64,000 nucleotides of DNA from Closterium sp. NIES-65 (Eukaryota; Streptophyta; Zygnematophyceae; Desmidiales; Closteriaceae), in assembly GCA_948144175.1 (NCBI GenBank), contig CANXME010001258.1:1783001-1847000 (forward strand). The letters are read 5' to 3'. The notes below the pieces were generated by a model. It was not told the DNA's origin. It saw only the letters and a list, made by a program, of their open reading frames with translations, and ran no database searches. Shown piece by piece: positions 16,801 through 42,864 of the stretch. The position numbers and the translations under genes are program-made. The first letter of the stretch is position 1. Each line of letters begins with the position of its first letter.

Positions 16801-19316
16801 AGACGGTAGAAGGGGACTGACTCGTCGAACGTAACGTCCTGGGAGGACAGAACACGACGAGAGGAGGGGTGGTAAAACTGCCACCCTGGGGCGTCAGTGG
16901 GGAAGCCAAGGAAGACACAGGGAGCAGCACGAGGGGACAGCTTGTCCGCAGACAAGTCGCGGACAAACGCCCGAGATCCCCAGACACGGAACACAGACGC
17001 ATCGCCAACCTTCCCCGTCCACAGCAAGACTGGGGACATCGCAGGCCGAGAGACCCGGGGGTGAAGGTTGAGCTGATGCGCCGCGTACCTCACCGCAAAC
17101 GGCCACAGAAAATGGGGGGCAGCCGCATGCATCATGGACGTACGAGCGACATCCATGACCATGCCAATGCGGCGCTCAGCAATCCCATTTTGCTGTGGTG
17201 AGTCCGGAAGCGTGAAGGTCTGGCGGATCCCCCGTGCACGACAGTAGTCCCGCAGAAGGCGAGAAGAGAACTCTCCGCCTCTGTCCGAGTGCAGACGCAG
17301 AACAGGAAAGTCCGAGCCGAAGCTCTTCCTGAGCTGGAGACGAGCCTCGCGGATCCAGTCGATCAGCACCTCAGTGACCGCACCCTTGCTGCGCAAGGGG
17401 AGGACTGTGGTGTAACGCGAGTAGTCGTCAACCACCAACAGGAAGTAGCGCTCGTAACCCTGCCCACGGACGGGGGCTGGGCCCCACACATCCATGTGAA
17501 GCGTCTGCAGGGGAGCCTCTGTCGGGGGGAAGTGGGAGGAGTGAGGAGTAGCCCGGAGGCGACCCTCGACACAGGGGACACAGGAAGGTCCTGGCCCGGA
17601 GGGGAGAGGAGGGAGAGACTGGGGAAGACCAGAGACAAGGACACGGGAAGCCATGCTCCGAAGACGGGGCAAGGAGGGGTGGCCAAGACGGTGGTGCCAC
17701 AGGAGAGTCTCGTGAGACAGGAGGCGACAAGAACAGGGGGCAGACTCAGGACCTGACCGGGACGCAGCAGCAAGTACCTGACCCGACGCAGCCACCTGAC
17801 CAGACGCAGGGACAGGAGGAGACTCAACGGTCAGGGTGTAGAGACTCGACCCCGGCCGACGCGAGAACGTGGCCAGGTGTCGGCCTGTGCGTGCCTCCGT
17901 GCAGTGGGTCACCCGCTGACTCGCAGGAGTGAACTGGTGAACACCCCCATCCTGCAGGTCCGCTCCACTCACCAAGTTCGTGGAGAACGAGGGAAGGTAC
18001 AGACCCGACAGGGTGCCCGAAGGGGCAGCCGGACACGGGAGGACAGTGGAGAAGTGAGACAGGACAGGACCTCCAGAGGGGTCAGCAAGGGAGACTGCAA
18101 CCGGCCGGCCGAGCGGCGTAAGGGTAGTGCGGTCTCGAAAGAAGGAGCGAGAAGCTCCGGAGTCAAGTGTGAAAGTGAGGGAGGACGAGGACGACGCAGT
18201 ACCTGAGAGCGCAGTCTCACCAGTACCTGAGAGCGCAGACGCACTGGCACCTAGAGCAGCAGCCTCACAAGCACCTAGCGCAGCAGTACCAATGCCCGGG
18301 TCGGGTTGGAAACAACGGTAACCCTCATTCTCCTCACTATAATCCACAACATACATAGCAGTAAGGATAGCATCAAAATCAAGATCAAAGATCGCTACAC
18401 CAGCCCTGAGAAGCTCATCCCAGCGAGGGATCTCACTAGCCCCAGGGAACTGCTGACGCCAGGCGTCCGTCAGGCGGCCAAAGCAGCTCTGGGTGGCGTG
18501 GGCACCCCCACACTGCTCACCCGCGCGGTCGCCGGAACGAAGAACGTAGGTGCAGGGACCAGTACCCCCACCCCTCTGACGCCCAGCGTACCACTCACGA
18601 AGCTGCTGAGGCGAAGGGATGTCCCGCGAGCGCTGCTGCTGCTGCCGGTGCGAGCGCTGGCCACCACCACCGCCGCTACGCTGCTGGGTACCACCCCGAC
18701 CAGCTCCACCTCCTCCACCACCACTGCCTCCTCCGCTGCCGCCTCCACCGCCTCCACCTCCGCCGCCTCCACCTCCGCCGCTGCCTCCACCACCACCGCT
18801 GGCACCACCACCACCGTCTCCGCCGCTGCTGCCACCACCACCACCACCACCCCCGCCACTAGTCCCGCCGCCACCCCCACTCCCTCCGCCGCCACCGCCG
18901 CCACCGCCACCGCCCCCTCCAGCTCCACCCGCGCCCTTGCCCCCCTTGCCCTTGCTGGAGCGACGTCTCCCACTAGGGGCAGACGCCGCGCCGACCGACT
19001 CAAGACCAAGCAGGTCGGCAGCAGCAGCAGAGGCAACAGAGGGCAGCAAGGGGGAAGGAGAGCACCCCTCAAAGATGGGGGTGCGAGGGTCACCACGAGA
19101 AGCACCTACAGCGACTATGCTCTTCTCCGCTGCAAGGAGGGCCTTCTCGAGGAGGTCGACGGTGAGGGTGGTGGGACAGACTGCGAGAAAGTGGTCCCTG
19201 ACGACGCGAAGGGAGTCAGGGAGGCGCGCGACTACGTAGTAGAGAGCGATGTACATGGGGGGGGGGGTTCTTAGCGCAGAACTCAGCAGGAAGGGCGGCG
19301 CGGTAGCGAGTGTCAC
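13821..19316 (-). CDS. Copia Gag-Pol: knuckle, protease, integrase, RT, RNase H (element 2)
   Basis: 1831 codons. Gly-rich gag region about residues 130-215, then a zinc knuckle (C, 13 residues, C-G-G-A-H-A-T-Q-S-C). Protease D-S-G-A-S at 385-389. Pre-integrase L-W-H-H-R-L-G-H at about 539-546 with C-V-P-C downstream. Integrase catalytic D609, D678 and E714 (D-x35-E spacing between the last two). Low-complexity linker of AEPGG-type repeats about 890-1090. RT from about 1340, catalytic Y-V-D-D at 1505-1508. RNase H with D1675 in A-D-A-S-W, ending before the stop at 13821. All catalytic residues are present. It makes, cuts, copies and inserts the element. The apparent start at 19316 is an artefact: the true start is in the gag frame at 19752/19728, one base out of phase. 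Confidence 0.93.
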   Translation of the reverse strand: MTLATAPPFLLSSALRTPPPMYIALYYVVARLPDSLRVVRDHFLAVCPTTLTVDLLEKALLAAEKSIVAVGASRGDPRTPIFEGCSPSPLLPSVASAAAADLLGLESVGAASAPSGRRRSSKGKGGKGAGGAGGGGGGGGGGGGGSGGGGGTSGGGGGGGGGSSGGDGGGGASGGGGGSGGGGGGGGGGGGGGSGGGSGGGGGGAGRGGTQQRSGGGGGQRSHRQQQQRSRDIPSPQQLREWYAGRQRGGGTGPCTYVLRSGDRAGEQCGGAHATQSCFGRLTDAWRQQFPGASEIPRWDELLRAGVAIFDLDFDAILTAMYVVDYSEENEGYRCFQPDPGIGTAALGACEAAALGASASALSGTGETALSGTASSSSSLTFTLDSGASRSFFRDRTTLTPLGRPVAVSLADPSGGPVLSHFSTVLPCPAAPSGTLSGLYLPSFSTNLVSGADLQDGGVHQFTPASQRVTHCTEARTGRHLATFSRRPGSSLYTLTVESPPVPASGQVAASGQVLAAASRSGPESAPCSCRLLSHETLLWHHRLGHPSLPRLRSMASRVLVSGLPQSLPPLPSGPGPSCVPCVEGRLRATPHSSHFPPTEAPLQTLHMDVWGPAPVRGQGYERYFLLVVDDYSRYTTVLPLRSKGAVTEVLIDWIREARLQLRKSFGSDFPVLRLHSDRGGEFSSRLLRDYCRARGIRQTFTLPDSPQQNGIAERRIGMVMDVARTSMMHAAAPHFLWPFAVRYAAHQLNLHPRVSRPAMSPVLLWTGKVGDASVFRVWGSRAFVRDLSADKLSPRAAPCVFLGFPTDAPGWQFYHPSSRRVLSSQDVTFDESVPFYRLFPYRTPSLPPPPDFLVPVPPPVDPLPPQVPAPSGVSQVDAVDPVEVTGDSGAAAGAEPGGADSGGTVRGGAEPGGATAGGAGPEGATAVGAEPGGAEPGGAVPGGAGPGGAGSGAAEPGGAELGAAEPGGAASGAAEPGVSPAAASRREPLSPQELREWFARRWRRAAESGGAAGAGAGASSTVEGSGAAGPGAAGPAGPPGAGAAEGVRAEPAAVGPAAGGVGGAGAVAEGAGAVPAESGAAARPRPYFVPLLQQVLGLSPPVEGPPPVQSQSLLEPSSPLPAPSPYTGPTGGLAERREPASRPASPVRAARASGRSSRQRPPPVPGTHRMSLRPSTAPLRAPLPSPPESSLPALADPESDSLRAASPTVTRLLATVVTDPSFESTSASALVAELVDFAARCRLDYAASLVAESASVCPPSVGGECALSTDVLEDRQEELQCLAAASPHLASVLLAPEGDPDALDIPTPRSYAEAVEGPYSSQWQAAMDAEMASWKSTGTYVDAVPPPGANIVSGMWIFRVKRPPGSPPVFKARYVARGFSQRQGVDYFQTFSPTPKMTTLRVLLHIAAQRDYELHSLDFSTAFLQGSLHEEIWLRRPPGFTGTFPPGTQWSLRRPVYGLRQAPREWHDTLRTTLAALGFAPSTADPSLFLRTDTSLPPFYILVYVDDLVFATADTAGLAYVKSELLKRHTCTDLGELRSYLGLQITRDRARRTITLTQSHMVQQVLQRFGFTYSSPQATPLPTRHSLSALPSDESVESSGPYAELVGCLMYLMTCTRPDLAYPLSILARYVAPGRHRPEHMAAAKRVLHYLCSTSGMGLVLGGRSPVVLTGHADASWADDQATQRSSQGYTFSLGSGSVSWRSTRSSSVLGSSCEAEIYAGAMAAQELRWLTYLLTDLGEPPRSPPVLYVDNKAMLALCREQRLEHRTKHIALRYFLARELQQRGQLRLAYVASEANTADVFTKALAPCDHQRFCTLLGLVPVLPHLLSS

Positions 19317-26044: not shown

Positions 26045-26571
26045 TAAAACGGTCTAAGGACCTAATTTTTTCTTCACGGAACATGGGCCCGCCCGTACTA
26101 CAGCGCGAAATGCGCTATTTTTTTCCCGTCCGCACGTCTGCGTGCGCTTTGCCCTTCCCATCGCCGCGGCGCCCCACGTTCCCGTCGCCGCGGCGCCCAA
26201 TTTCCATCACCGCGGTGCCCCTTCTTCTTCCCGTCGCCGCGGCGCCCTTCTTCCCGCTCATCCCGCCCCTCGTCGCTCCGCGCCGTCTCGTCGACCCGCG
26301 GCCCGCATGTCGCCCTCGCGGACACCAGCGCCCGACGCGGACGCGGATGCCAACGCCAGGCGCTAGCGCGGACGCCTGCGACTGCCGCCAGCGCCAGCGC
26401 GGACAGCAAGCGCCAGCGCCAGCGCCAACGCCGGCAGCTGCTCACCCCCCCCCCCCCCCCCCCCCCCCCCTTCCTCCCTTCCGCGGCTTCCGCCGTTGCT
26501 GGGGGGGGGGGGGGGGGAGGGGGGAAGAGAAGAGAGGTTAAGGGGGGATGGGAGAGGTTAAAGGGGGACGA

Positions 26572-26574
<3 letters not shown>
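26045..26574 (+). other. Internal region of the hosting element, left part
   Basis: Non-coding, GC-rich: CCGTCGCCGCGGCGCC repeats at 26150-26260, a C26 run at 26445-26470 and a G17 run at 26501-26517. The two runs could pair, and the G run could form a quadruplex. Confidence 0.55.

Positions 26575-26642
<68 letters not shown>
26575..26642. repeat. (GA)n microsatellite, left edge of the non-LTR array
   Basis: Perfect (AG)n of about 68 bp immediately before copy A. Confidence 0.95.
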
Positions 26643-26643
<1 letters not shown>

Positions 26644-26761
26644 CCCTAGGAGCTAGTCCTTAGCCTCTCCAGCCCCCCTCCAGCCTAGTATAAAGGCCCT
26701 AGGATCTGTTCCTAGTGCCTCATTATTCGTTTCATAGTTCATGTGCCCTCCTAACCGAGCG
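26643..26761 (+). promoter_or_regulatory. Single 5' promoter-like unit of copy A
   Basis: About 119 bp ending in CCTAACCGAGCG, with TATAAAG at 26689-26695. Present once here and duplicated in copies B and C. Promoter role inferred from the TATA motif and position. Confidence 0.5.
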
Positions 26762-26817
26762 GCTCGCGCCGGCCGCCTTCGGCGGCCGACGCTCGATTGC
26801 GCGGCCTTCGGCCGCGC
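26756..26817 (+). ncRNA. Structured 5' region of copy A: two strong hairpins
   Basis: GGCCGCC-TTC-GGCGGCC (26771-26787) lies inside an outer stem CGAGCG (26756-26761) / CGCTCG (26790-26795). A second hairpin, GCGCGGCC-TTC-GGCCGCGC, is at 26799-26817. The same elements occur in B and C. Probably an RNA structure for translation, packaging or processing; an R2-like self-cleaving ribozyme is possible but not shown. Confidence 0.6.
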
Positions 26818-26903
26818 GTGAGGGGCGGCAAGGAAAGCAGGGACATAAGCAAGTATAGGAAAATATACAAGCATGCATCACACCAAACAGGCCTAAGAGA
26901 TAC

Positions 26904-29900
26904 ATGGAGCAAGAGGAGCCCGCAACTAGCAGCGGTGAGCTCCCGGAGCACGCAGCCGCCACATCCCGTACGCGTCAAGCCGTGCAAGCTGCCCCAACAG
27001 CGCAAGAAGAGCCCGCGCCTACAAGCGGTGAGCTCCAAGGGCATGGAGAATGCCCGTCAGGGAGCGCCACAGCTCCCGGACCACAATTGTGCTTGCGCCG
27101 ATCGCCGCGGCTCCAGATCCAGCGCGCAAGTGCCGCTTCAAGCTCCGGACAGCCTCACCAAGCTGTCCCGCGGCAGCAGCGCCTCCCTCTGCGGGCGCAG
27201 CCAGCACGGGCGCCAGCAGCTCCGCGAGCTGGTCAGCCGCGTCGAGGCACGGGTCACGCAGGTGGCTGCGAAAGGACTCGGGCGGGACAGCAGGGAGAGA
27301 CGAGTGCGCAAGCACTTGAATCAGAAGCAAAGCATGCAGGCTCTCCGCGAGACGGTGAAGCTGACCAAGCGTGGTCTCAGGAACGCGCGTCTGCGGAGGC
27401 AGCAGAGCCGCCGCCAGGAACCGGAGAGACGCATCAGCAGCGTTCGGAGCCGCATCCGCGCCACTACCCGCCGCCACGAACTCTACCCCCGCGACAGGCG
27501 GAACAGGTGGCAGATGAAGGCGGGAGCCAGTCGCCGGCGTCGCAACAGAAGGATAAGGAACGGACGGGGCAGGGACATGAGGAAGAGGAGCAACAGCAGG
27601 CGGAGGGGCTACATGATGCACAGGCGAACGAGGAGCAACGGGCTCCGGAGCAGCCTGCCGCGAATTGCTCTGGCCCGGCGCTGCCCTCCCTTGACGTACG
27701 GCACGCGACACCTCCCGAGACACCTCGCGCTGGAGGTCCGCCAGCGTCACTGGCGGCCGATACGACCCGCCTCCACCGCGCCCCGTGGGGCCCCGCCATC
27801 CCCGACTGCCACCCGAGTGCGTTGGCCACTGGGCCTGCTGCTGGTAGCGCCGGGGGGAGTTCCGCCGGCGCCGAGACGTCTCGCGCTCCTGCGGTGGCGC
27901 GGGAGAATGGGGCCGGGACAAGCGGCGGTCAGGCGACGGGGGACGAGACGGCGGAACAACCGGAGCCGCAGGCGGTGGAACGGGAGGAGACTGATCCGCG
28001 CTCGGAAGAGCAACCACCGAGGGCGGGCCGCCAGTGGTGGCGGACACCGCAGGCGACGAAGAAGCAGACGCCAGCATCGGCACGCCGGGGACAGCACCGG
28101 CAGGTGCAGCTGGAACGCCAGGCCCTGGGACAGGATGAGCGGCGACCCCCCCGGCAGGAGCAGATGCCGCCAGCGGCACGGCAGGAACAGGGAGAACAGG
28201 CGGAGAGGGGGCGACAGGCGGAGCGGGAGGAGCAACCATCGGCGCAGACGGCTCAACCCCGTTCACGACGAGAGGACGTGCGGATACGAGGGGAGGAGTC
28301 TTTTCAGCGGCTACTAGGCCGGGCGGCAGAACAGACAGTGGCGGGGAACCCGTCGCCTCGGTCCTCGCTCCTGAGGCAGACGACGGCCTTTCGAGTACAA
28401 CCGACGCGGCGCCAACGCGCATTGGCGAATAATCAGTCACACCAGCAATCACCATCGCGAGGACAGGAAGCGCGAGGCGATGGGCGGGCAGCAGGTAGCG
28501 GTCGAGGAGGTGGGCCAGAAAATGGCTATCAGAGGGAGGCCAGAAGGGCTTTAACTAGGCTACTTAATGACGAAGAAGAAAATGACACCCTCTTATAGAG
28601 AAGAGCCAACGCCATCCAGTACGGAGGAAGGGTCAGAAGCAGAGGAAGGGGTAGAGGAGAATGGGAGAAGGACAGGAGCGAGAACAAGGCGGTCCCGAGG
28701 AGAGGGAACGACCACCGCGGCTGGACCGTCCGATGGCAATCGTACGGGCGAAATTCCAACCGCACCATCACAAGCAAGGCCGAGCCGCACCGGGAGAAAT
28801 CGGGCCGCGACGGCAGGGGCATCGGTGCGAGACAATCCCAATCGCCCGCGCTATTTTACGCCAGAGGAGTTGGCGACGCGAGCAGATCTGTTCGCTGGCG
28901 TCGAGAACTGGGATATCCCAGCCCTCTGCGATAGTCGACAACCATCCCTGGCAAGGCGGTTACCGCCCAATTTGTGCCAGTTGTTTTCGCTGGCGCTGCT
29001 AACCCCGTTACTCAACCTGTCACGAAACCCGGAAGGAGAGGCAGGTTGGCGCCTACTCCTATTTCTGCCACGTCTGACGCTTCGCCAGACCTCGCCACGG
29101 AAACCAAACTGGCCCCAGATCAAGGCCCGGCTCCGAGCCTTCCAACGTGGCGAGTGGGGTCAACTGTACCAGGATGCGATCGAAGCAGTCAACACTCCCA
29201 CGCCTCCACGTCACAAGCCCGACGCAACCGGGGTCATCAGCAGGGCCGAGGGCCTGGCGAAACGGGGTAGCCTACGACGCGCTGTGCTGGCGTTGGAGTC
29301 AACGCCGGTCTGCACCCCAACTCCGGAAATTCTGGAGGAGCTTCGACAGAAACACCCGCCAGCCGAAGCAGGGGAGACGACGTGGCCACCCTCGCCCGAG
29401 TCAAAATTGTTCATCACCCAGGCTGACTTCGCCAAACTGTTGGGAAGGTGTGAAAATGGGGTCGGTGCTGGGCCATCGGGAACGACATTCGAACACATGC
29501 GCGACGCGGCAATCACGAATAGACGAGTTAGCACCCATCTGCACGCCTTGGTTAACACCATTTTGGGGGGCAACCTTCCAGCACCGGTGTCGGACCTTCT
29601 GACAGCTTCACGGCTCATTGCCCTGGCCAAACCCGGTGGGGGGGCTCGACCAATCGCCATTGGCGAAAGCATCACGCGGCTGACTGCCAAAGCAGCCCTC
29701 GCAGCCATGGGAGAGGCCGCGCGGGCCTTTTTCCTACCTCTACAGTATGGCGTAGCCGTGCCTGGAGGAGCCGAGGCAGTCATCCACGTGGCACGGGCGT
29801 ATCTGGACAAGCTTCCCAACAGCCTCGTGCTGCAAACCGACATCTCAAATGCATTCAACAGTATTTCACGGCAAGCCATCGCGACAGCGTTACAAGGACC

Positions 29901-31756
29901 AAAATTGTCGCCACTACTGCCGCTGGTGAAACTGACATACGGTAACCCGTCGAAATTATTCGTCGACGCGAATTTTGGATCGGACCCACTGATCAGCGAA
30001 CGGGGCGTGCGCCAAGGGGACCCACTTGGCCCACTACTGTTTGCGGCAGGTATGCACACTACACTCCGCGACACTGCTGCAGCACACCCCCAGGTGCTGT
30101 GTCTGGCATACGCCGACGACGTCACATTCCTGGGGGAGGCGACGGCTACTGTAGCAGCCTTCAACCATTTCACCGAGCAGCTGGCACACCTGGGGTTACG
30201 GCATAATGCGCAGAAATGCGCAGCTTGGAGCACACAAGCAGCAGTAAAGGATTTGCTGCCGCACGACGTACCATTCTCCCAGGATGGTGTTCGCTTGCTC
30301 GGAAGCTTTGTGGGGCCTGACAGTGGGGCGTCACAGTTCCTGTCGGGTCAGCTGGAGGAGATGGCCAAACCCCTGCCACTGCTCGAGAAAGCCGACCCGC
30401 AGGTAGCCTCGTTATTACTCACCCGCTGCATTTCGAGGCGTGTGGCATACCTTACCAGAACAACACCGCTCTCCCTTTTGCCGCGAGAAACCTGGAGCCA
30501 GTGGGGGACAGACCTGCTAGCGGCCCTACTCACAGCATGCCACCTTCGCGTCCCCACCTGCCGTACCGAGCAAGCACGTGTCTGGGCGCAGGCGTCCCTG
30601 CCGCCGTCTTTGGGAGGGATAGGCATTACTGACCCGCTGGTCGAGGGTGTTTTCGGGTTCGCAGCGAGCTTCACGCAGGCGGCGCTTTTCATCGCATCAC
30701 TAGACGGCGCTCCTGAGGGCGCGCTGGCGCAGGCGCGGGACCACATGCAGTTGCCTGCTGACACCACCACACCCCTTCACACGTGGCTGTCGGAGTGTGA
30801 AGCAGCGTTACCCGACGATGCGGCTGGAGCGAACCGATGTGAGGCTCCAGCACGCATTGGCGCTAAGGGTGCATGGGAGTAGATATGCGGCGCAGGTGCA
30901 GGCGACGAGGGAGATGGCGGTGAACCCCTTATGCGGACATACGCAGCGGATGTACTCAATGACGGGGTACGGGACTGGGGATTGGCTGACCGCTATCCCG
31001 ATTGCGGCCAACAGGAGGATAGGGCCCACTCACTTTTCCAATGCCGTACGTTTCCGGCTGGCCCTCCCCTTCTCCACGCCGAAGAATTGCGACTGTGCGG
31101 ACCACACGGAGATCACAGACCCCCGCCTCCCGAATCACCTTCTCCGCTGCGGCACGGGCAGGCATCGCATCAACACCCACAACGAGCTGCGCGATGCCTG
31201 TGTCAGCATGGCCCAGGACGCGGGTTTCATCGTTCACAGAGAATCCTCAGCGCACTGCCCCGTTGAGGAACAGACGGCAGATTTTACAATGACGGACAGA
31301 AGCAGTGGGGCCGTCTATGTATGTGATGTCACCATCACCGACCCCATCAGCACAAGGGACCCGGAGGCACAGAAGGGCAGGGGCTGGGCGGCCCGGGAGC
31401 AAGCGGACAAGAAAATCCAGCACTATGCCTCCCTACCAGAGACGGTGACCTTCCTCCCCCTGGCTGTGGACACCTATGGCTGCCCGTGTGCGGAGGTCCC
31501 AGCCTTTTTGAAGCTCTTAGCGGACACTGCAGCTCGGCGACACTTCAACGCCGACTCTAAATCGTTCTATGCTGCAAAGTTCCTGCACCAGTTCAGGCAG
31601 CGCTGGTCTGTGGCCCTGCAAAGGGCCCAATCTGTAGGCCTCCTGCTAAAGCTTGGGGAGGCGGCGGCGGTTGAGAACCCGCCGGTGGGAGGAATTGGGG
31701 ATGAGTTGCATCTAGGGGACTGCTTTGCAGTGATTGAGCCCCTCGTAGAGCTGTAG
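26904..31756 (+). pseudogene. RT and restriction-like endonuclease ORF of copy A, frame-broken
   Basis: Three pieces: 26904-28598, 28567-30882 and 30797-31756. The RT piece has D-I-S-N-A-F-N-S-I, R-Q-G-D-P-L-G-P-L-L-F and catalytic Y-A-D-D (residues 515-518 from 28567). The last piece carries the CxC-x13-H-x3-C finger and the nuclease (D-F-T-M-T-D ... C-D-V-T-I-T-D ... K-K-I-Q-H-Y). A 1-nt difference near 28588 and a deletion of about 23 nt near 30830, relative to B and C, separate them. Conservation of the plus frame is clear only from about 28275; before that the minus-strand ORF is the conserved one. Not functional as one protein. Confidence 0.85.
27019..28455 (-). CDS. Conserved antisense ORF of copy A (ORF1-like protein, 478 aa)
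   Basis: Starts M-V-I-A-G, ends G-A-H-R-L. Order: Pro/Ala-rich N-terminus; a basic SR segment, R-P-P-S-P-D-R-R-L-S-R-P-H then R-R-R-R-N-S-P-R-R; an RG segment (G-R-G-G-G-G-S-Y-R-P-P-V); a short helix A-D-L-Q-R-E-V-S-R; a Pro linker with P-P-V-P-P-V-A-G-V-E-F; and a Leu/Ala-rich C-terminal domain of about 150 residues with R-L-A-E-S-L-H-A-L-L-L-I-Q-V-L-A. Intact in A, B and C. In 27 codons compared with B (antisense of about 27307-27387), 16 differ and 14 are synonymous. Function unknown; the basic, low-complexity half suggests an RNA-binding chaperone like ORF1 proteins of other non-LTR elements. No known fold recognised. Confidence 0.75.
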   Translation of the reverse strand: MVIAGVTDYSPMRVGAASVVLERPSSASGARTEATGSPPLSVLPPGLVAAEKTPPLVSARPLVVNGVEPSAPMVAPPAPPVAPSPPVLPVPAVPLAASAPAGGVAAHPVPGPGVPAAPAGAVPGVPMLASASSSPAVSATTGGPPSVVALPSADQSPPVPPPAAPVVPPSRPPSPDRRLSRPHSPAPPQERETSRRRRNSPRRYQQQAQWPTHSGGSRGWRGPTGRGGGGSYRPPVTLADLQREVSREVSRAVRQGRAAPGQSNSRQAAPEPVAPRSPVHHVAPPPAVAPLPHVPAPSVPYPSVATPATGSRLHLPPVPPVAGVEFVAAGSGADAAPNAADASLRFLAAALLPPQTRVPETTLGQLHRLAESLHALLLIQVLAHSSLPAVPPESFRSHLRDPCLDAADQLAELLAPVLAAPAEGGAAAAGQLGEAVRSLKRHLRAGSGAAAIGASTIVVRELWRSLTGILHALGAHRL

Positions 31757-31846
31757 ATTGGCGAGGTTTGCAACCGGCATGCTTGTTATCTAGGCCACTA
31801 TAACTTGCCTGCCTGTACTTGACTGCTATATCAATAAAAGGACCAT

Positions 31847-31847
<1 letters not shown>
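31757..31847 (+). other. 3' UTR and terminus of copy A
   Basis: Contains AATAAA and ends GGACCATT before (AG)n. The terminus is shared with B (GGACCATT at 37257-37264) and C (42547-42554). Confidence 0.7.

Positions 31848-31932
<85 letters not shown>
31848..31932. repeat. (GA)n junction between copies A and B
   Basis: About 85 bp of (AG)n joining the 3' end of A to the 5' unit of B. Confidence 0.95.
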
Positions 31933-31935
<3 letters not shown>

Positions 31936-32176
31936 AGTCCTTAGCCTCTCCAGCCACCTCCAGCCTAGTATAAAGGCCCTAGGATCTGTTCCTAGTGCCT
32001 CATTATTCGTTTCATAGTTCGTGTGCCCTCCTAACCGAGCGGGAGAGAGAGGAGAGAGAGAGAGAGACCTAGTCCTTAGCCTCTCCAGCCACCTCCAGCC
32101 TAGTATAAAGGCCCTAGGATCTGTTCCTAGTGCCTCATTATTCGTTTCATAGTTCGTGTGCCCTCCTAACCGAGCG
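31933..32176 (+). promoter_or_regulatory. Duplicated 5' promoter-like unit of copy B
   Basis: Two apparently identical 109-bp units (31933-32041 and 32068-32176), each ending CCTAACCGAGCG, separated by GA-rich DNA. Each has TATAAAG (31969-31975, 32104-32110). Only the second continues into the hairpins. Confidence 0.65.
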
Positions 32177-32232
32177 GCTCGCGCCGGCCGCCTTCGGCGG
32201 CCGACGCTCGATAGCGCGGCCTTCGGCCGCGC
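32171..32232 (+). ncRNA. Structured 5' region of copy B: two strong hairpins
   Basis: Hairpins at 32186-32202 and 32214-32232 match those of copy A; only the linker differs (ATA instead of ATT). Confidence 0.6.
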
Positions 32233-32318
32233 GTGAAGGGCGGCAAGGAAAACAGCAACATAAGCAACTATAGGAAAATACACAAGCATGTTTCACTCCA
32301 CAGAGTCCTAAGAGATAC

Positions 32319-35300
32319 ATGGAGCAAGAGGAGCCCGCAACCAGCAGCGGTGAGCTCCAGGGGCACGCGGCCGCCACATGCCGTCCACGTCAAGCAGTGC
32401 AAGCTGCCCCAACAGTGCAAGAAGAGCCCGCGCCTACAGGCGGTGAGCTCCAAGGGCATGGAGAATGCCCGTCAGGGAGCGCCACAGCTCCCGGACCACA
32501 ATTGTGCTTGCGCCGATCGCCGCGGCACCAGATCCAGCGCGCAAGTGCCTCCTCAGGCCCCGGACAGCATCGTCAAGCTGTCCCGCAGCAGCAGCGCCTC
32601 CCTCCGCGGGCTCAGCCAACACGGGTGCCAACAGCGTCGCGAGCTGGTCTGCCGCGTCCAAGCACGTGTCACGCTGGCGGCCGCGGAACGTCTCCTCAGG
32701 AATCACGGGGAGAGACGAGTGAGCAAGAACCTGGATCAGCAGCAACGCGTGGAGGCTCTCCGCCAGTCGGTGGAGCTGGCCAAGAGTTGCTGCCGGAACT
32801 CGCGTCTGCGGAGGCTGCAGCGCCTCGGACAGAAATAGCAGCGGCGCATCAGCAGCAGCGAGGTGCGAACGCAGAGCCGCAGTGCCATCCCCAGCGGCAA
32901 CAAACTCCACCCCCGAAACAGGCGGAACCGGGGGCAACTGCAGGCGTGACCCAGGAGCAGGCGCCGAGACGGAAGGAGACGGAGTAGACGGGACGAGGAC
33001 AGAGGAAGGAAGTAGACCGGTCGGCGGAGGGACGGCAGGAGACACAGGCGGACGAGGAGCCTCGGGAGCCGGCGCAGCCCGCGACGAACTGCTCTGGCCT
33101 TGCGCCGCCCTCTCCTCGCGAACGGCCCGGGACACCTCCCGCTGAAGATCGGCCATCGTCACCGGCGGGCGGTACCCCCCACCACCACCGCGCCCGCGGG
33201 GACCCCTCCAGTCCCCTTGACCACCGGGCCGAGCAGGCCAGCGAGGCCGCTCCTGGTACCGCCGGGGAGAGTCACGACGGCGACGAGATGACTTGCGTTC
33301 CTGAGGAGGCGAGGGGGAATGAGGGCGAGACGATCGGCAATCCGGCGACGGAAGACGAGACGGCTGCGCTGCAAGGGCCGCCTGTAGTTGAGCAGGTGCC
33401 GCCGGTTTCGCGCCAGGAGGAGCAACCACCGGAGCAGGGGAGACAGTGGTGGAGGACACCGCCCTCGGGGAAGAAGAAGACGGCGGCGCAGACACGCCGG
33501 GAACAGACACGGCCGGGACAACGACCGTGCCAAGTGCAGGGGCAGGCATTGCAGCAGCCACCCCAGCAGACAGAGAAGCCTCCGCTGCCACCACGAGGGC
33601 AGGGAGCACGGGAGCCGCAGGCGGAGCAGACGGGCCAGCCGCTACCACGCCTTGCGGAGCCACGGGTGCGTGGAGAGGAGTCCTTTCAGAGACTGTTGTC
33701 CCGGCGTTCGGAGCAGGCGGTAGAGGGGGTTTCGTCGCCGTGGTCCCCTTTTCGAGTCCCGACTGAGGCCTTGCGACAACAGCCGACCAGGCGACAACGC
33801 GCTCTGGCGACGGCTCATCAGCTCCGGCAATCACCACCATCTCGGACGCGAGGAGCACGCGGGACGAACCACGTAGCAGGAAGCGGAGTCGGCGGGGGCC
33901 CAGAGAACGGATACCAAGCAGCAGCACGTGTGGCTTTAAACAACCTACAATCAGCAGACGAAGACGACGAGAGAATGGACCCCTCTTATAGGAGAGACGC
34001 CACGCCGGATAGCGAGGATGAAGGGGAGGAGGAAAGGGACGAGATGAGGGTGAGCTCTGGGAGAAGAGAAGCCGGGGCCAGGATAGCACGAGCACAACCG
34101 CTCCAGGAGGCACGCACGCCGCACGATGCTGATCGGATGGTAGAGCCTCCAACATTCGCCTCACCAGCGGGACCGAGTCAGGCCCGGCGAAATCGGGCCG
34201 CGAGTAGGGGGGCTGCACCACGTCAGGCCGCTTCGGCCCCCCGCTATTTTTCGTCTGAGGAACTGGCGAAGCGAACAGACCTGTTCGCTGCGGTAGGGGA
34301 TTGGGATGTCGCAGCTTTGAGCGATAGTCGTCAGCCCCCGCTGTCGCGGCGCTTACCGCCAAACCTGTGTCAGCTGTTCTCGCTAGTGTTACTGACGCCG
34401 TTACAGCATCTCTCCCGAAACCCGGAGTCGGAAACAGGTTGGCGTCTGTTGCTATTTCTCCCGCGCCTGACCCTTCGCCAAACCTCGCCGCAACGACCGG
34501 ACTGGCCGAAAGTCAAGGCCCGGCTGCGAGCCTTCCAACGTGGCGAATGGGAGCAACTGTACCTGGACACGATTGCTGCAGTCAACGCGCCACCCCCGCC
34601 CCGGCACAGGCCAGACGTGACGGGAGTAATCAAACGGGCCGAAGGGCTGGCGAAACGTGGCAGCCTACGACGAGCCGTTCTTGCATTGGAGTCAACGCCT
34701 GTCTGCACGCCCAGCCCCGAAATCTTGGATGAACTGCGCCAGAAGCACCCACCAGCTGTCGACGAAGAGGTGATCTGGTCGACACCGGAGAAGTCAACGA
34801 TTTCCATCACCCACGCGGATTTCGCTAAGCTGTTGGGCAGGTGCGAAAATGGAGTTGGAGCTGGGCCGTCGGGAATGACATTTGAGCATTTGCGCGACTC
34901 GGCGATAACAAATGCGCTGGTCAGCACCCATCTGCACGCCCTGGTTAACACAATTCTGGGAGGCAATTTGCCAGACACGGTGGCGAATTTGTTAACCGCG
35001 TCGCGCCTCATTGCCTTGGCCAAACCAGGGGGGGGCGCTCGGCCAATCGCGATTGGCGAATGCCTGACGAGGCTAGCAGCCAAGGCAGCCCTGCTGGCAA
35101 TGGGGGAAGCAGCTCGCGAATTCTTCCTTCCTCTACAGTACGGCGTGGCAGTGCCAGGTGGCGCCGAGACACTGATCCACGCGGCCAGGGCTTTCTTGGA
35201 CGCTCGCCCCGACAGCCTCGTGCTGCAAGCAGACATCAGGAACGCATTCAACAGTATCTCGCGAAAAGCCATCGCCACCGCGTTACAAACCCCCACCCTC

Positions 35301-37172
35301 TCGCCGCTGCTGCCGCTCGTCAAGTTCACGTACGGTAACCCATCGCAGCTGATCCTAGATGCAACCTTCGATTCCGAACCACTGCGAAGCGAACGCGGTG
35401 TTCGCCAGGGGGACCCACTAGGCCCGCTGCTATTTGCAGCTGGAATACATGCCACGCTTTGCGATACGGCGGACACACACCCCGGGGTACTGTGTTTGGC
35501 GTATGCGGATGACGTGACGTTCATCGGGGAACAAAGAGACACTGTAGCAGCATTTTCGTACTTCACCGACAAATTGTCACTCCTGGGGCTTGAGCACAAC
35601 CCACGAAAATGTGCTGCGTGGAGCTCCAGTACGATACAAGCACCGCACTTACCCCCCGGAGTGCCGTTTTCAAACGACGGCGTCCAGCTACTGGGCAGTT
35701 TCCTTGGACCGGACGACGACGCCGCTTCTTTTCTGGCGGAGCAGTTGGCTGACATGGCGAAGCCGTTGAGGCTCATCGAACGAACGGATCCCCAGGTCGC
35801 ATCACTACTTATCACGCGATGCATATCGAGGCGTGTCGCGTACTTGACCCGGACGACGCCCCTGAATCTTCTACCCCGCGACAAATGGAGCCAGTGGGGC
35901 ATGGACCTCCTCACCACGCTCCTTACCGCCTGCGACATCCGCATGCCGACCAGCCATTCGGAGCAGACGAGGGTTTGGGAGCAAGCGTCACTGCCGCCGT
36001 CATTAGGAGGGCTAGGCATCACGAACCCCTTGATTGAGGGGGTCTACGGTTTCGCCGCGAGCTTCACCCAGGCGGCGCTGTTTCTCAACGACCTCACGCT
36101 GTGCGATGGGAATGCACTGAAGCAGGCACGGGACCACATGCTCATACCGCGGGATACCAGCACGCGCCTTCACGTTTGGGTGAAGGGGTGCGAGGAAGCG
36201 CTGCCGACAGACGCCCGGGAGATACTGGAAAAGGAGCGGTTGGAGCGATCGGACATACGTCTCCAACACGTCCTCGGGCTGCAAGTGCACGGCAGCAGAT
36301 ATGCCGTACAGGTCCAGGCAACCAGGCACATGCGATTGAACCCACTCTCCGGCCACACTCAGCGCATGTTTTCGCTGACGGGGTACGGCACCGGTGATTG
36401 GCTGACCGCGATACCTATCGAAGCGACTAGGCGGATGGGCCCCGTCCACTTCGCTAACTCCATCAAATTCCGCCTAGCTCTCCCCTTCTCGACTCCTAAG
36501 AATTGTGACTGCGCGGACAAAACGGCTATCACTGACCCCCGTCTGCCGAACCATCTCCTGCGCTGCGGTTTGGGCAAACACCGCATTAACAATCACAACG
36601 AGCTGCGGGATGCATGCATCAGCATGGCGCAGCACGCAGGTTTCATTGTCCACAGCGAGTCGGCCGCTCATTGCCCCATCGAGGAACAAACCGCCGACTT
36701 CACCATGACGGATCGTAGCAGTGGGGCGGTATATGTGTGTGATGTCACTATCACGGATCCCATAAGCACGAGGGACCCAGAGGCGCAGAAAGGCAGGGGA
36801 TGGGCGGCACGGGAACAAGCGGATAAGAAGATCCAGCACTACGCCAACCGGCCGGAGACGGTTGGCTTTTTCCCTCTGGCGGTCGACACCTATGGCTGCC
36901 CATGCGCGGAAGTACCCACCTTCCTGAAGCTGTTGGCAGATACGGCGGCTCGGCGGCACTTCAACGCCGACTCAAAATCATACTATGCCGCAAAGTTTCT
37001 ACATCAGTTTCGACAAAGATGGTCGGTGGCCCTTCAAAGGGCCCAATCTGTGGGCCTCCTGATGAAGATGGGCGAGGCGGCTGCTGCTGAGAACCCACCT
37101 GTGGGCGGCATTGGGCAGGAGTTGCACCTTGGAGATTGTTTTGCAGTGATAGAGCCCCTCCTAGACCTTTAG
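32319..37172 (+). pseudogene. RT and restriction-like endonuclease ORF of copy B, one in-frame TAG
   Basis: Open from 32319 except TAG at 32985-32987; the long uninterrupted part from ATG 33288 is 1294 codons. RT catalytic Y-A-D-D at residues 739-742 of that part; C-terminal finger (N-C-D-C-A-D ... N-H-L-L-R-C) and nuclease residues as in C. The TAG lies where the antisense ORF is conserved and does not damage it, so the plus-frame N-terminus may not be coding at all. If the real start is downstream of 33840, for example ATG 33975 before D-P-S-Y-R-R, this copy has an intact enzyme. Confidence 0.8.
32434..33840 (-). CDS. Conserved antisense ORF of copy B (ORF1-like protein, about 468 aa)
   Basis: Start chosen at M-V-V-I-A-G (33840-33838), the position conserved in A and C; the frame is open further upstream to 34362, but that part has no counterpart. 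SR segment (S-S-R-R-R-R-D-S-P-R-R), RG segment, V-T-M-A-D-L-Q-R-E-V-S-R, P-P-V-P-P-V-S-G-V-E-F, and the Leu-rich C-terminal domain ending G-A-H-R-L. The P-P-V-P-P-V-x-G-V-E-F block is encoded with mostly different third bases in A, B and C. Role as for copy A, inferred only. Confidence 0.75.
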   Translation of the reverse strand: MVVIAGADEPSPERVVAWSAVVARPQSGLEKGTTATKPPLPPAPNAGTTVSERTPLHAPVAPQGVVAAGPSAPPAAPVLPALVVAAEASLSAGVAAAMPAPALGTVVVPAVSVPGVSAPPSSSSPRAVSSTTVSPAPVVAPPGAKPAAPAQLQAALAAQPSRLPSPDCRSSRPHSPSPPQERKSSRRRRDSPRRYQERPRWPARPGGQGDWRGPRGRGGGGGYRPPVTMADLQREVSRAVREERAAQGQSSSSRAAPAPEAPRPPVSPAVPPPTGLLPSSVLVPSTPSPSVSAPAPGSRLQLPPVPPVSGVEFVAAGDGTAALRSHLAAADAPLLFLSEALQPPQTRVPAATLGQLHRLAESLHALLLIQVLAHSSLPVIPEETFRGRQRDTCLDAADQLATLLAPVLAEPAEGGAAAAGQLDDAVRGLRRHLRAGSGAAAIGASTIVVRELWRSLTGILHALGAHRL

Positions 37173-37264
37173 GGGGGGGGGTTTAGGGTAGGATTTGCCT
37201 TTGTTTGTATGCCTCTATACCCTGCATGCTTGTACCTGGCGGCCACATCAATACAAGGACCATT

Positions 37265-37296
<32 letters not shown>
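37265..37296. repeat. (GA)n junction between copies B and C
   Basis: About 32 bp GA-rich with one GG interruption. Confidence 0.93.
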
Positions 37297-37297
<1 letters not shown>

Positions 37298-37558
37298 GCC
37301 CTAGGAGCTAGCCCTTAGCCTCTCCAGCACTCTTCAGCCTAGTATATAGTGCTCCTCTGCAGCTAGTTCTCTTCATTGTTCGGTTTTCTTCTCAGTTGTT
37401 TCTCCTAACCGAGCGAGAGAGAGAGGAGAGAGAGAGAGAGGCCCTAGGAGCTAGCCCTTAGCCTCTCCAGCACTCTTCAGCCTAGTATATAGTGCTCCTC
37501 TGCAGCTAGTTCTCTTCATTGTTCGGTTTTCTTCTCAGTTGTTTCTCCTAACCGAGCG
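37297..37558 (+). promoter_or_regulatory. Duplicated 5' promoter-like unit of copy C
   Basis: Two apparently identical 119-bp units (37297-37415 and 37440-37558) ending CCTAACCGAGCG, with TATATAG at 37343-37349 and 37486-37492 and GA-rich DNA between. Their sequence differs clearly from the units of B. Confidence 0.65.
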
Positions 37559-37614
37559 GCTCGCGCCGGCCGCCTTCGGCGGCCGACGCTCGACAGCGCG
37601 GCCTTCGGCCGCGC
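37553..37614 (+). ncRNA. Structured 5' region of copy C: two strong hairpins
   Basis: Hairpins at 37568-37584 and 37596-37614, same arms as in A and B although the flanking 5' unit has diverged. Confidence 0.6.
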
Positions 37615-37708
37615 GTGGGGGAACGACAAGCACACAACACACAGAGTTACTAACAAGAGGCATACAAGGATGGCAAGCCCTACAGCGGCCTAGCCGCGCA
37701 AACCACTA

Positions 37709-40700
37709 ATGGCAGAGCCGGAGCCCGCGCCTACATGCGGTGAGCTCCAAGGGCGTGAAGAACGCCCGTCAGGGAGCGCCACAGCTCCCGGACCACAAGC
37801 GTGCTTGCGCCGATCGCAGCGGCTCCAGACCCAGCACGCAAATGGCGCCGCAAGCCGCGCACAGCCTCATCAAGCGGCCCCGCCGCCGCAACGCCTCCCT
37901 CGGCGGGCGCAGCCAGCACGGGCGCCAGCAGCCCTGCAAGCTGATCGGCGGCGTCCAGACAAGAGTCGCGGTGACGATCCAGGAACAACTCAGGGGGGGC
38001 CGCGGGGAGGGACGAGTGAGCAAGAACCTGTATCAAGAGCAGAGCGTGAAAGCTCTCTGCGAGACGGAAGAGCTGGCCGAGGGTCGCCTCCGGAACCCGG
38101 GCCTGAGGGGGTTGCAGCGCCTGCGCAAGGAACTGGAACGGCTCCACTACGGCAGGAGAAGCCGGGCCAACTGCCGTCACCGCTCCGCCTCCCACAGCCA
38201 CAAATTCTACTCCCGCCACGGGCGGGACTGGCGGCAGATGCAACCGCGACCCTGGAACGGGAGCAGTCGCAGCAGCAGCGGGAAGCGATGAGGCCGGAAC
38301 ACGGGATTGGACGAGTGCAGCAGGGGGCGGAACCTCATGAGGCGCCGCTTGACGCTGGGCGGCATGGGCGACGGCAACGTGCGAGCTGCCTTGTGTCTGA
38401 GCAGCCCTCTCTTCACGCATCGCGGTCGTTACCGCACGTTGCAGATCCGCCATCCTCACGGGCGGATCATACGACCCTCCCCCATTGCGACCACGAGAAC
38501 CCCACCAGCCGCCGCGACCGCCACGGTGAGCTTGCCACTGACCCGATTGCTGATTGCGCCGGGGAGAATTCCGCCGGCGCCGGGAGGACGCCCGATCCTG
38601 TTGGGGCGCTGGAGAATGAGGGCGAGATAGGCGACGGTCCGGCGAGGGAGGACGTGACTGCGACGTTGGTTGCGTCGGCTGAGCCACGGGAGGCGCAACG
38701 GGAGCAGACGGGTCCAATGCAGGGGACACAATCAATTGCGTCGGGCCGCCAGTGGTGGCGGACGTCGGCTGCGGGGACGAGGCAGGCACAGAAGTCTGCG
38801 GCTTGGGGCCCGAAGCGGGGGGCCCAACGGGAGCAGGAGCCGGGAGCGCGGCGGCAGACCCTGACGGGCCATCGGGCGAAGCCTGGGGAGCAGTTGGCGT
38901 GGACGGAGCGGATTTCCCAGCAGCAGCAAGAGCCACAGACTGAGCGGCAGCTGCGGCAAGGGGAGCCTCGGGTTCGGGGTGAGGAGGCTTTTCAGCGGAT
39001 GTTGTCGAGGGCTTCGGAGCCGGAGCCACCGGGGGCTTCTTCGCCGTGGTCGCCTTTCCGGCCTCAGACTGAGGCTTGGCGACCACTGCCGACCAGGCGG
39101 CAGCGCGCTCTGGCGACGGCTCGGGAGCTCCAGCAATCACCATCACGAGGTAGTGCAGCACGGGAAGAAAGGAGGCAGACGGTTAGCGGAACTGGCGGAG
39201 GGCCTGAGAATGGGTTTCAGGCTGCGGGACGTCGGGCTTTAATTGCTTTGGTAGCGGCTAATACAGAAGGGGACAGAAATGACCCCTCTTATACTACGGG
39301 AGTGGAGCCAGACAGCGAAAACGAGGAAGAAAGAGACGGAGCGGAGGCAACGAGAGTAGGGACAGGGAGGAGAAGACCTGAGACAGCCAATTTACCCACA
39401 GTGGGAACAGAAAGGCGTGCAGGGCCATTGGATGCCGATCGGACGGATGAGAATCCAACTCGGCAGCAGTCAACGCCACCGAGTCGCGCACGCAGACATC
39501 GAAACGCTTCCCTCCACCCAGTGTCAGGATTGGCCCCGCAGCGCCCGCGCTATTTTTCGCCAGTGGAGCTAGCGGAGATGGGGGATAAATTCGCCGACAT
39601 AGCGAACTGGGACATCTCCGCCCTCTGCGATAGTCGCCAACCGCTGCTGTCAAGACGATTACCGCCTAACCTGTGCCAGTTATTCTCGCTGACACTCCTG
39701 ACCCCGCTACTTCACCTTTCGCGAAACCCTGACTCCGAAGCGGGTTGGACGCTGCTTCTCTTCCTCCCGCGTCTGACCCTTCGCCAGGCTTCGCCAAAGC
39801 ACCCAAATTGGCCACAAATCAAGGCCCGTCTTCGGGCATTCCAGCGAGGCGAGTGGTCACAGCTCTACCAGGAGGCGATAAACGCGGTCAACGCCCCTCC
39901 GCCCCCACGTCACCAACCCGATGTGACAGGTGTCCTGAGCAGAGCCGAGGGGTTGGCGAAACGTGGCAGTCTGCGTCGAGCCGTGTTGACGCTCGAGTCA
40001 ACACCCGTCTGTACACCGAGCCCAGAAATTCTAGACGAGCTGCGACAAAAGCATCCACCGGCGGGAGACGACCAGCTGACCTGGCAGTCAGCCGATGCTA
40101 AGCCCCTGTGCATTTCCCACGCAGAATTTGCGAAGCTCCTTGGGAGATGCGAGAATGGTGTTGGTGCCGGACCGTCTGGCACAACATTTGAGCACCTGCG
40201 CGACGCGGCAATAACCAATGCATCCGTCAGCACCCATCTGCACGCCCTCGTGAATACAATTCTGGGGGGCAACCTCCCAGCTTCGGTTGTGGACCTGCTT
40301 ACTGCGTCCAGACTCATCGCCCTGGCCAAACCTGGGGGGGGGGTCCGACCAATCGCTATCGGAGAATGCCTGACTCGGCTGGCTGCCAAAGTTGCGCTGT
40401 TGGTCATGGGGGAGGCTGCACGTGACTTCTTCCTACCCCTACAGTTCGGAGTGGCGGTGCCTGGTGGGGCGGAAGCGATAATTCACGCCGCCCGAACGTA
40501 CGTGGACTGCCACCCAAACAGCCTGGTACTACAGACCGACATTGCGAATGCTTTCAACAGCATTTCGCGACAATCCATCGCAGCGGCATTACAGGAGCCA
40601 ACTCTATCGCCACTACTCCCACTGGTTCGACTGACCTACGGTAACCCGTCGCGACTCTACATGGACTCGACCTTCGCGAGCGGACCCCTACGCAGCGAAC

Positions 40701-42478: not shown

Positions 42479-42553
42479 AGGGATTAGTCTGAATCTCACA
42501 TGCTCGTGGAACTATATGTCTGTACCTTTTTGCCATATCAATATACGGACCAT

Positions 42554-42554
<1 letters not shown>

Positions 42555-42627
<73 letters not shown>
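42555..42627. repeat. (GA)n microsatellite, right edge of the non-LTR array
   Basis: About 73 bp of (AG)n directly after GGACCATT of copy C. Confidence 0.95.
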
Positions 42628-42628
<1 letters not shown>

Positions 42629-42864
42629 CTTCTTCTTTTCTGTTTTCTTCTTTCGTAATGTTTTCTCTTCGTTTCGTGCTTCGTTCCTTTTCTCCGTCGT
42701 TTCTGGGCGTGGTCACCCAGAGTCGCGCACACCAGGCATCCACTGCAGGGGTTAAACCGCAGGCGGGATTTCCATCGTGTGTTGTATTGGTGGGCCCAGC
42801 TGCGGCCCGGTGAAGTCTGCACTTAGGGTAGAGCGCCCCTCACTAGCTATGCTTGTATGCAGTT
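42628..42864 (+). other. Internal region of the hosting LTR element, right part
   Basis: Pyrimidine-rich start (TTCTTCTTTTC), then non-coding sequence up to the PPT. No gene seen. Confidence 0.6.

Follow-up and report, generated by a model that had tools for sequence, protein, structure and literature searches.

Evidence for a conserved antisense gene nested in the polyprotein frame of an R2-like retrotransposon of Closterium

Introduction

Long protein-coding overlaps on opposite strands are rare and usually contested. In human LINE-1, a non-long terminal repeat (non-LTR) retrotransposon, an antisense open reading frame (ORF), ORF0, is reported together with an antisense promoter. ORF0 lies in the 5′ untranslated region, is short and primate-specific, and overlaps neither ORF1 nor ORF2. 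Here, we analyze a 64,000-nt stretch of Closterium sp. NIES-65 (contig CANXME010001258.1, positions 1,783,001–1,847,000; hereafter, the window), in which about 26.6–42.6 kb are occupied by three head-to-tail R2-like non-LTR retrotransposons (copies A, B, and C), each with a long minus-strand ORF opposite the N-terminal part of the sense polyprotein. Comparison among copies makes it very probable that, in this Closterium family, the antisense ORF truly encodes a protein and forms a gene within the N-terminal part of the polyprotein ORF, with both strands of ~1.4 kb translated.

The element shares with R2 and R2-like elements of the restriction-like endonuclease (RLE) type an RVT_1 reverse transcriptase (RT) domain, the best matches among solved sequences, a profile match in two stretches (RT and C-terminal endonuclease), and a fold match, but differs from R2 in its (AG)n borders instead of ribosomal DNA (rDNA), its ~600-aa low-complexity N-terminal extension, and its antisense gene. 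To our knowledge, no antisense gene is known from R2. Antisense protein genes in other retroelements include HTLV-1 HBZ and HIV-1 asp, the latter antisense to and overlapping env and confined to one HIV-1 group. These belong to retroviruses with LTR promoters, whereas the overlap in Closterium is complete and occurs in two element clades. Ambigrammatic narnaviruses, which are RNA viruses, carry a long ORF on each strand of a single sequence; their reverse ORF was judged non-coding in one study and required for persistence in another. In Closterium, by contrast, the antisense reading is the better conserved of the two along most of the overlap (dNN/dSN 0.46; see below). Plant Tat/Retand LTR elements (Grande gene23, RIRE2, PvRetro13) share with the Closterium element a conserved antisense protein gene in a plant-lineage retrotransposon; their antisense ORFs occupy the interval between pol and the 3′ LTR (PMC7264820, PMC11963269), and an antisense promoter is reported for Grande (PMC7264820). 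The Closterium antisense ORF differs in its position inside the sense polyprotein ORF, 5′ of the RT, and in belonging to a non-LTR element.

The initial annotation of this locus knew of no RLE-type non-LTR element with a long antisense ORF, and none was found in the open-licence literature searched, nor was any nested antisense gene in a non-LTR polyprotein. The main text of the genome paper for strains NIES-64 and NIES-65 (PMC10407611) does not contain the word antisense. We think it reasonably likely that this is the first known non-LTR retrotransposon that needs two proteins from opposite strands of one sequence, with a long-lived nested antisense gene, a promoter of its own embedded in polyprotein coding sequence, and functional residues split between the strands. 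The dozens of genomic copies provide a built-in control, recent singletons against older shared changes, that makes opposite-strand dual coding directly measurable. The locus suggests that a non-LTR retrotransposon can hold an extra protein gene without a length cost; the price is RNA complementary to the element's own template, which raises the question of how the element escapes, or makes use of, double-stranded RNA of its own making.

An antisense ORF in fixed phase in three copies

The antisense ORFs lie on the minus strand at 27019–28455 (copy A, 478 aa), 32434–33840 (copy B, 468 aa), and 37731–39143 (copy C, 470 aa), where the initial annotation had placed them, and translation gives the MV(V)IAG starts and GAHRL/M ends that it had reported. 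In copy A, the whole antisense ORF is enclosed by the N-terminal part of the sense ORF (26904–28598, plus strand), a frame that closes at 28598, ahead of the RT. The antisense ORF of copy C lies entirely within an intact sense ORF of 1589 aa (37709–42478, plus strand; RVT_1 and R2 matches).

The two frames are in a phase in which sense position 1 is opposite antisense position 1, sense position 2 is opposite antisense position 3 (the wobble position), and sense position 3 is opposite antisense position 2. In frame-agnostic nucleotide alignments, differences at antisense positions 1/2/3 number 96/115/171 between copies A and B, 113/132/227 between A and C, and 108/110/232 between B and C, and all gap lengths in the A/B/C alignment are multiples of three. 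Because antisense position 3 is opposite sense position 2, this skew cannot be explained by constraint on the sense frame alone. Over 27307–27387, for which 14 synonymous and two non-synonymous antisense changes against copy B had been claimed, 10 of the 27 antisense codons are identical, 15 differ synonymously, and two differ non-synonymously; the non-synonymous count was right and the synonymous count is one higher.

Antisense ORFs of 340, 550, and 165 codons also occur opposite the RT of copies A, B, and C (29211–30233, 34370–36022, and 39910–40407, minus strand). They share one phase, which differs from that of the nested ORF, their ends are unlike, and the longest has no Pfam match. These ORFs are probably compositional, and their occurrence makes ORF length alone weak evidence here.

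Purifying selection on the antisense frame

Copies were sought in the 874-Mb Closterium genome by searches that scored the best candidates (40 of 578, 90 of 124,622, 86 of 71,440, and 46 of 73,990), and all copy numbers are therefore lower bounds. Among the best 40 of 578, at least 40 places, copy A included, are 95–100% identical in nucleotide sequence to the copy A antisense ORF. The 72 loci collected, plus copies A, B, and C, gave 75 rows, of which 67 combine the MV(x)IAG start with the end motif; L011 and L029 (partial or out of frame) and L046, L050, L060, L068, L070, and L072 (start pattern failed) were left out. Addition of L046, L068, L070, and L073–L076 later gave 74 rows, and L050, L060, and L072 remained out. 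Copy A recurs as L001 and copy C as L032, so that sets of 67, 70, and 74 rows represent 65, 68, and 72 distinct places. Two 14-row sets were used: 14 representatives with <90% nucleotide identity to each other, drawn from the 74 rows, for the selection counts, and a set for motif invariance that includes L030, L053, and L055, which are above that cut.

Among eight divergent copies, mean per-site differences at antisense positions 1/2/3 are 0.196/0.231/0.416. Substitutions in the 14 representatives were counted in both frames with our own implementation, following the approach of OLGenie. None of the changes was synonymous on both strands at once, which limits the usable classes to dNN/dSN for the antisense and dNN/dNS for the sense frame. 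The antisense ratio is 0.46 (confidence interval [CI] 0.41–0.51) and the sense ratio is 0.80 (CI 0.72–0.89); the copies share ancestry, and some have degenerated, which shifts ratios towards 1. The value near 1 that had been named in advance as telling against an antisense gene was thus not found. Along the overlap, the ratios alternate: antisense codons 1–70 show 0.80 (0.56–1.06) against 0.46 (0.33–0.63) for the opposite sense frame, codons 71–120 show 0.74 and 0.87, codons 121–165 are constrained in both frames (0.54 and 0.60), and codons 166–468 range over 0.27–0.49 in the antisense and 0.75–1.27 in the sense frame. These ratios point to dual coding with alternating constraint. In an element-wide scan, variability is highest at sense position 2 across most of the overlap and at sense position 3 from 39149 onward to the ORF end.

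The initial annotation had taken the sense frame to be free, which does not hold opposite antisense codons 1–70. A plus-strand ratio well below 1, also named there as speaking against an antisense gene, is present over those codons; the antisense gene nevertheless stands, with its own frame constrained over codons 166–468.

Mutational bias was assessed in two clusters of close copies with duplicates removed (A cluster, 28 rows at ≥94% identity; C cluster, 28 rows at ≥90%; counts are unchanged with duplicates kept). Singletons are spread almost evenly over antisense positions 1/2/3 (A cluster: 37/42/44; C cluster: 37/36/40), whereas shared changes favor position 3 (16/17/27 and 28/33/62, respectively). 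At 98.5% identity, the A cluster (22 rows) has 23/26/21 singletons and 4/5/12 shared changes; the C cluster (18 rows), with 9/9/4 and 5/5/8, has too few to tell. Antisense stops are missing from the shared changes of both clusters (0 and 0; 1.0 and 3.1 expected in A and C), and sense stops number one in each (2.7 and 4.9 expected). Among singletons, sense stops number seven and five (5.5 and 4.5 expected) and antisense stops zero and three (2.1 and 2.8 expected). Stop numbers are small, and we read these counts as selection on both strands in those lineages that go on making copies. Mutational bias is rejected as the source of the skew, which the singletons lack, with one reservation: A-cluster singletons include somewhat few changes that affect both proteins. 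A chance ORF is rejected by the codon-position statistics.

The earlier claim of purifying selection on the antisense protein is thus borne out by the position skew in the 14 divergent copies, by its absence among within-cluster singletons, and by a second-clade replicate and conservation of the protein across strains, described below. On these comparative grounds, we regard purifying selection on the antisense frame and local constraint on the sense frame as established.

A second clade and distribution among strains

The RT of a second clade, represented by two DNA copies (L077 and L078) and database proteins, has 50% identity (P0139) to the copy C RT, and at least 19 open frames of 1,512–1,657 aa occur among the best 46 of 73,990 places matched by P0139. 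In L077, the sense frame over the region is free of stops and an antisense relative lies in the same phase (36–39% identity over 110–132 aa by BLAST; 5.5e-12 by hmmsearch against a single sequence). Between L078 and L077, differences at antisense positions 1/2/3 number 75/126/179 of 393 sites each, with 54.6% amino acid identity over 405 aa. Predicted second-clade antisense proteins are present in Closterium strains NIES-65, NIES-64, Yama58-4, NIES-53, NIES-54, and Naga37s-1. The antisense proteins of the two clades are 28–30% identical and align along their C-terminal domain; an RM ending is also shared by five of the seven second-clade proteins. All antisense proteins among the matches listed (the best 120 of 191, and 26 second-clade matches) are unnamed proteins in public databases, and none of these matches is from outside Closterium. 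We take the presence of the predicted gene in two clades and several strains to be established by these alignments.

P0139 matches C501, C212, C1883, and others at 95–97% over the RT and 53–56% over the N-terminal part, which suggests that N-terminal and RT modules have been swapped between subfamilies.

A candidate antisense promoter within the sense-coding sequence

Motif searches identified a candidate antisense TATA box, TATAAGAG, on the minus strand at 28590–28597 in copy A, where it is the sole minus-strand TATAA in 26641–31850, at 33983–33990 in copy B, and at 39286–39293 in copy C; each of the three elements has a single minus-strand TATAA. The motif TATAAG lies ~141–159 nt upstream of the antisense ATG in 69 of 70 rows. 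A second motif, TTAAAGCC, is found 99 nt upstream of the antisense ATG (minus strand; 28547–28554 in copy A, 33932–33939 in copy B, and 39235–39242 in copy C), at exactly −99 in 70 of 70 rows. It is among the three longest invariant blocks around the antisense start in the motif-invariance set, its wobble positions are fixed in all 14 rows while most neighboring codons vary, and it is retained in L077. Together, TATAAG and TTAAAGCC may form an antisense promoter within the sense-coding sequence.

Expression of the element could then proceed from two promoters. A sense promoter in the 5′ monomers would produce the full-length RNA that serves as template and as mRNA for the RT and endonuclease, and the internal antisense promoter (TATAAG near −150 and TTAAAGCC at −99) would produce a shorter antisense mRNA, translated into a protein of ~470–550 aa. 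The probable origin of the antisense gene is overprinting of a disordered extension that is tolerant in composition.

The sense frame and alternative explanations

Nesting of the antisense ORF is consistent among copies. The sense ATG lies 22, 31, or 115 nt beyond the antisense stop in 64 of 67 rows, and an in-frame stop precedes it in all 67. Where 1.5 kb of flank is available (55 rows), 39 rows are open over all 1.5 kb beyond the antisense start, into the RT, and 34 of these 39 also lack a sense stop in the overlap. From this arrangement we also consider the nesting itself to be established.

Stops are strongly depleted in the sense frame of the overlap when antisense codons are shuffled synonymously: copies A, B, and C contain 0, 1, and 0 sense stops compared to 11.4, 11.3, and 9.9 after shuffling, and the same procedure reveals no deficit in the RT region (27 vs. 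26.2, 39 vs. 42.0, and 37 vs. 40.2). In the converse test, antisense stops after shuffling of sense codons, P is 0.011 for copy A, and none of 1000 shuffles matched copy C. When trinucleotides were split at codon junctions in ten copies, which are related by descent, TGA-forming TC|A junctions numbered 2 vs. 18.0 expected, with 100 vs. 90.4 for non-stop VC|A, and TAR-forming YT|A junctions numbered 11 vs. 94.7. The corresponding counts in the RT region are 33 vs. 53.5 for YT|A and 34 vs. 36.2 for the purine-containing RT|A.

Several observations weigh against translation of both strands. Antisense codons 1–70 lack clear antisense constraint. Of the second-clade copies, L077 lacks a TATAA and contains two antisense stops within the homologous stretch, and L078 contains one antisense stop and two sense stops; TATAAG is also missing in one of the 70 rows. 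Among A-cluster singletons, changes that alter both proteins are fewer than expected (36 vs. 50.2) and antisense stops number zero (2.1 expected), which means that singletons are not a perfect neutral control. The structural model of the antisense protein has low confidence (mean pLDDT 48.2) and is mostly disordered, and in fold searches it resembles generic helical bundles (PsbQ, cytochrome c′, and BRIL fusions). Antisense stops occur in six and sense stops in 17 of the 67 rows. Under shuffles that preserve junction dinucleotides, the sense-stop deficit is significant in copy A alone of ten copies (0 vs. 2.41, P 0.01; P 0.06–0.71 for the other nine), and the converse test gives P 0.39 (A) and 0.55 (C). 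Finally, non-stop RT|A junctions are depleted as well (8 vs. 25.1; 0.32), so part of the T|A deficit is general.

One alternative is that the antisense strand alone codes here, with a sense ORF kept open by composition and an RT that starts downstream of the overlap, as the copy A ATG at 28567, near the RT, would allow. The overall sense ratio is near 1 (0.80), reaches 0.75–1.27 over antisense codons 166–468, and sits comfortably with this view, as do the sense stops in about a quarter of the rows and the lack of support in nine of ten copies under the stricter null. That null, however, fixes the very T|A deficit that stop avoidance would itself produce, and the TGA-forming junctions are depleted with undepleted non-stop controls. 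General TpA avoidance accounts for part of the sense-stop deficit and stop avoidance probably for the remainder. Shuffle, trinucleotide, and singleton counts support selection that keeps both strands open over the overlap, mostly without significance under the stricter null, and with this caveat we regard sense-stop avoidance in these sequences as probable. Sense constraint opposite antisense codons 1–70 (0.46) and 121–165 (0.60), a sense ATG just beyond the antisense stop with an upstream in-frame stop, and sense frames of ~1,590–1,610 aa in two clades also argue against coding by the antisense strand alone, which we consider unlikely.

Far less probable still is selection on the nucleic acid (RNA structure, packaging, or small-RNA targets) in place of the antisense protein. 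It would accommodate the invariance of TTAAAGCC and the conservation, at all codon positions, of the 5′ stem block and the first 90 nt of the sense ORF. It predicts no three-base periodicity, whereas the periodicity observed follows the antisense frame for the larger part of the overlap and switches to the sense frame elsewhere, and alignment gaps among A, B, and C are in whole codons. Coding by the sense strand alone, with the antisense ORF as a by-product of GC-rich low-complexity sense sequence or of mutational bias, has in its favor the long ORFs opposite the RT (up to 550 codons) and an open antisense frame that is unsurprising on stop counts once junction dinucleotides are preserved, and is rejected because the peak of differences falls on sense position 2 in most of the overlap, singletons lack this peak, and the two clades share a conserved C-terminal antisense domain.

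The first 90 nt of the sense ORF (37709–37799 in copy C, and the matching parts of A and B), which include the end of the antisense ORF, have few differences at any codon position and hold small palindromes; they perhaps carry an extra RNA or cis-acting signal over the two coding frames.

Features of the predicted antisense protein

Three antisense proteins were compared with Pfam without a match at E up to 1, and the search for relatives among solved sequences returned a single insignificant match (E 0.42). From its start, the predicted protein consists of a Pro/Ala-rich disordered region, a basic middle region rich in RS and RGG, a short helix (229–250 in the model), and a C-terminal helical bundle (helices over 350–462, with block means of 57–77). 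The matches to PsbQ, cytochrome c′, and BRIL fusions were not taken as homology because these are generic helical bundles. Composition and model suggest a disordered protein, rich in RS and RGG, that would bind nucleic acids and carry a helical bundle at its C terminus. The role we tentatively favor, as one possibility, is that of a trans-acting RNA-binding accessory to the element ribonucleoprotein, comparable to ORF1p or a nucleocapsid; the main alternative is regulation of element expression or of silencing.

Classification and structure of the element

The RT of the element matches RVT_1 (E 8.3e-19), and its best matches among solved sequences are R2 proteins (E 2.2e-9; E 1e-38 with a profile built from 20 relatives). 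The profile matches R2 in two stretches, the RT and the C-terminal endonuclease (domain i-E 8.2e-28 and 1.8e-8), the latter aligning profile positions 820–977 with R2 residues 994–1146. Both stretches were matched in all five R2 sequences, and one in LINE-1 ORF2 sequences. Residues C768, H784, C788, and D832 of the predicted zinc knuckle and endonuclease are near-invariant. The model of the RT protein (mean pLDDT 86.8) has R2 as its top Foldseek match (E 4.6e-22), and fold Z scores are tied between R2 (18.7 over 702 residues, rmsd 6.7) and LINE-1 ORF2p (18.1). Copies A–C adjoin (AG)n tracts and not 28S rDNA; within 26500–42700, no rRNA family was matched, and searches with other RNA families produced two weak matches far under the gathering scores. 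On its predicted domains, the element is classified as an RLE-type non-LTR retrotransposon, and given the (AG)n borders and the lack of rDNA insertion, it is called R2-like and not R2. Relatives of the RT are present beyond Closterium; none was confirmed in viral contigs. In elements of NIES-67, RT identity is ~30%.

Each copy consists, from 5′ to 3′, of one or two monomers with a TATA motif, a block with UUCG-capped stems, the long sense frame, GGACCATTAG, and an (AG)-rich tract, which is interrupted in copy B. In copy C, the sense ORF encodes the ~600-aa low-complexity N-terminal extension, the RT, a zinc-knuckle-like motif, and the restriction-like endonuclease. The sense frame of copy A is broken at 28598, a point passed open in near-identical copies such as L002–L004, and continues as ORFs for the RT (28567–30882, plus strand) and the C-terminal endonuclease (30797–31756, plus strand). 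In copy B, an in-frame stop within the overlap ends the first part (32319–32987, plus strand), and the remainder, with the RT and endonuclease, spans 33288–37172 (plus strand).

The sense TATA motif CTAGTATA was located by motif search at 26685–26692 (plus strand) in the 5′ monomer of copy A, and further sense TATA motifs of 5′ monomers lie on the plus strand at 31965, 32100, 37339, and 37482. Copies B (31930–32176) and C (37300–37560) have two tandem monomers each, with motif spacings of 135 and 143 bp, and every tandem monomer comprises an (AG)-rich start and a TATA motif. They resemble the promoter monomers of mouse L1, and such an arrangement would let new insertions retain a promoter. The block with two UUCG-capped stems lies at 26762–26820 (plus strand) in copy A and near 32177 and 37559 in the others, with little divergence at all three positions in the matching scan window (37529) of copy C. 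At the 3′ end of copy A, GGACCATTAG is followed by (AG)n (31840–31931, plus strand), and an identical 3′ end occurs at 37257 and 42547. Long (AG)n tracts flank the copies (26575–26642, 31848–31931, and 42555–42626); they represent either a tail of microsatellite type that the element produces or (AG)n sites that it targets.

Elsewhere in the window, two Ty1/copia-type polyproteins are encoded at 13821–19316 (minus strand) and 56970–59672 (plus strand), both with integrase and SH3 domains and the former with RVT_2, and the remaining sequence contains several related repeats beside them.

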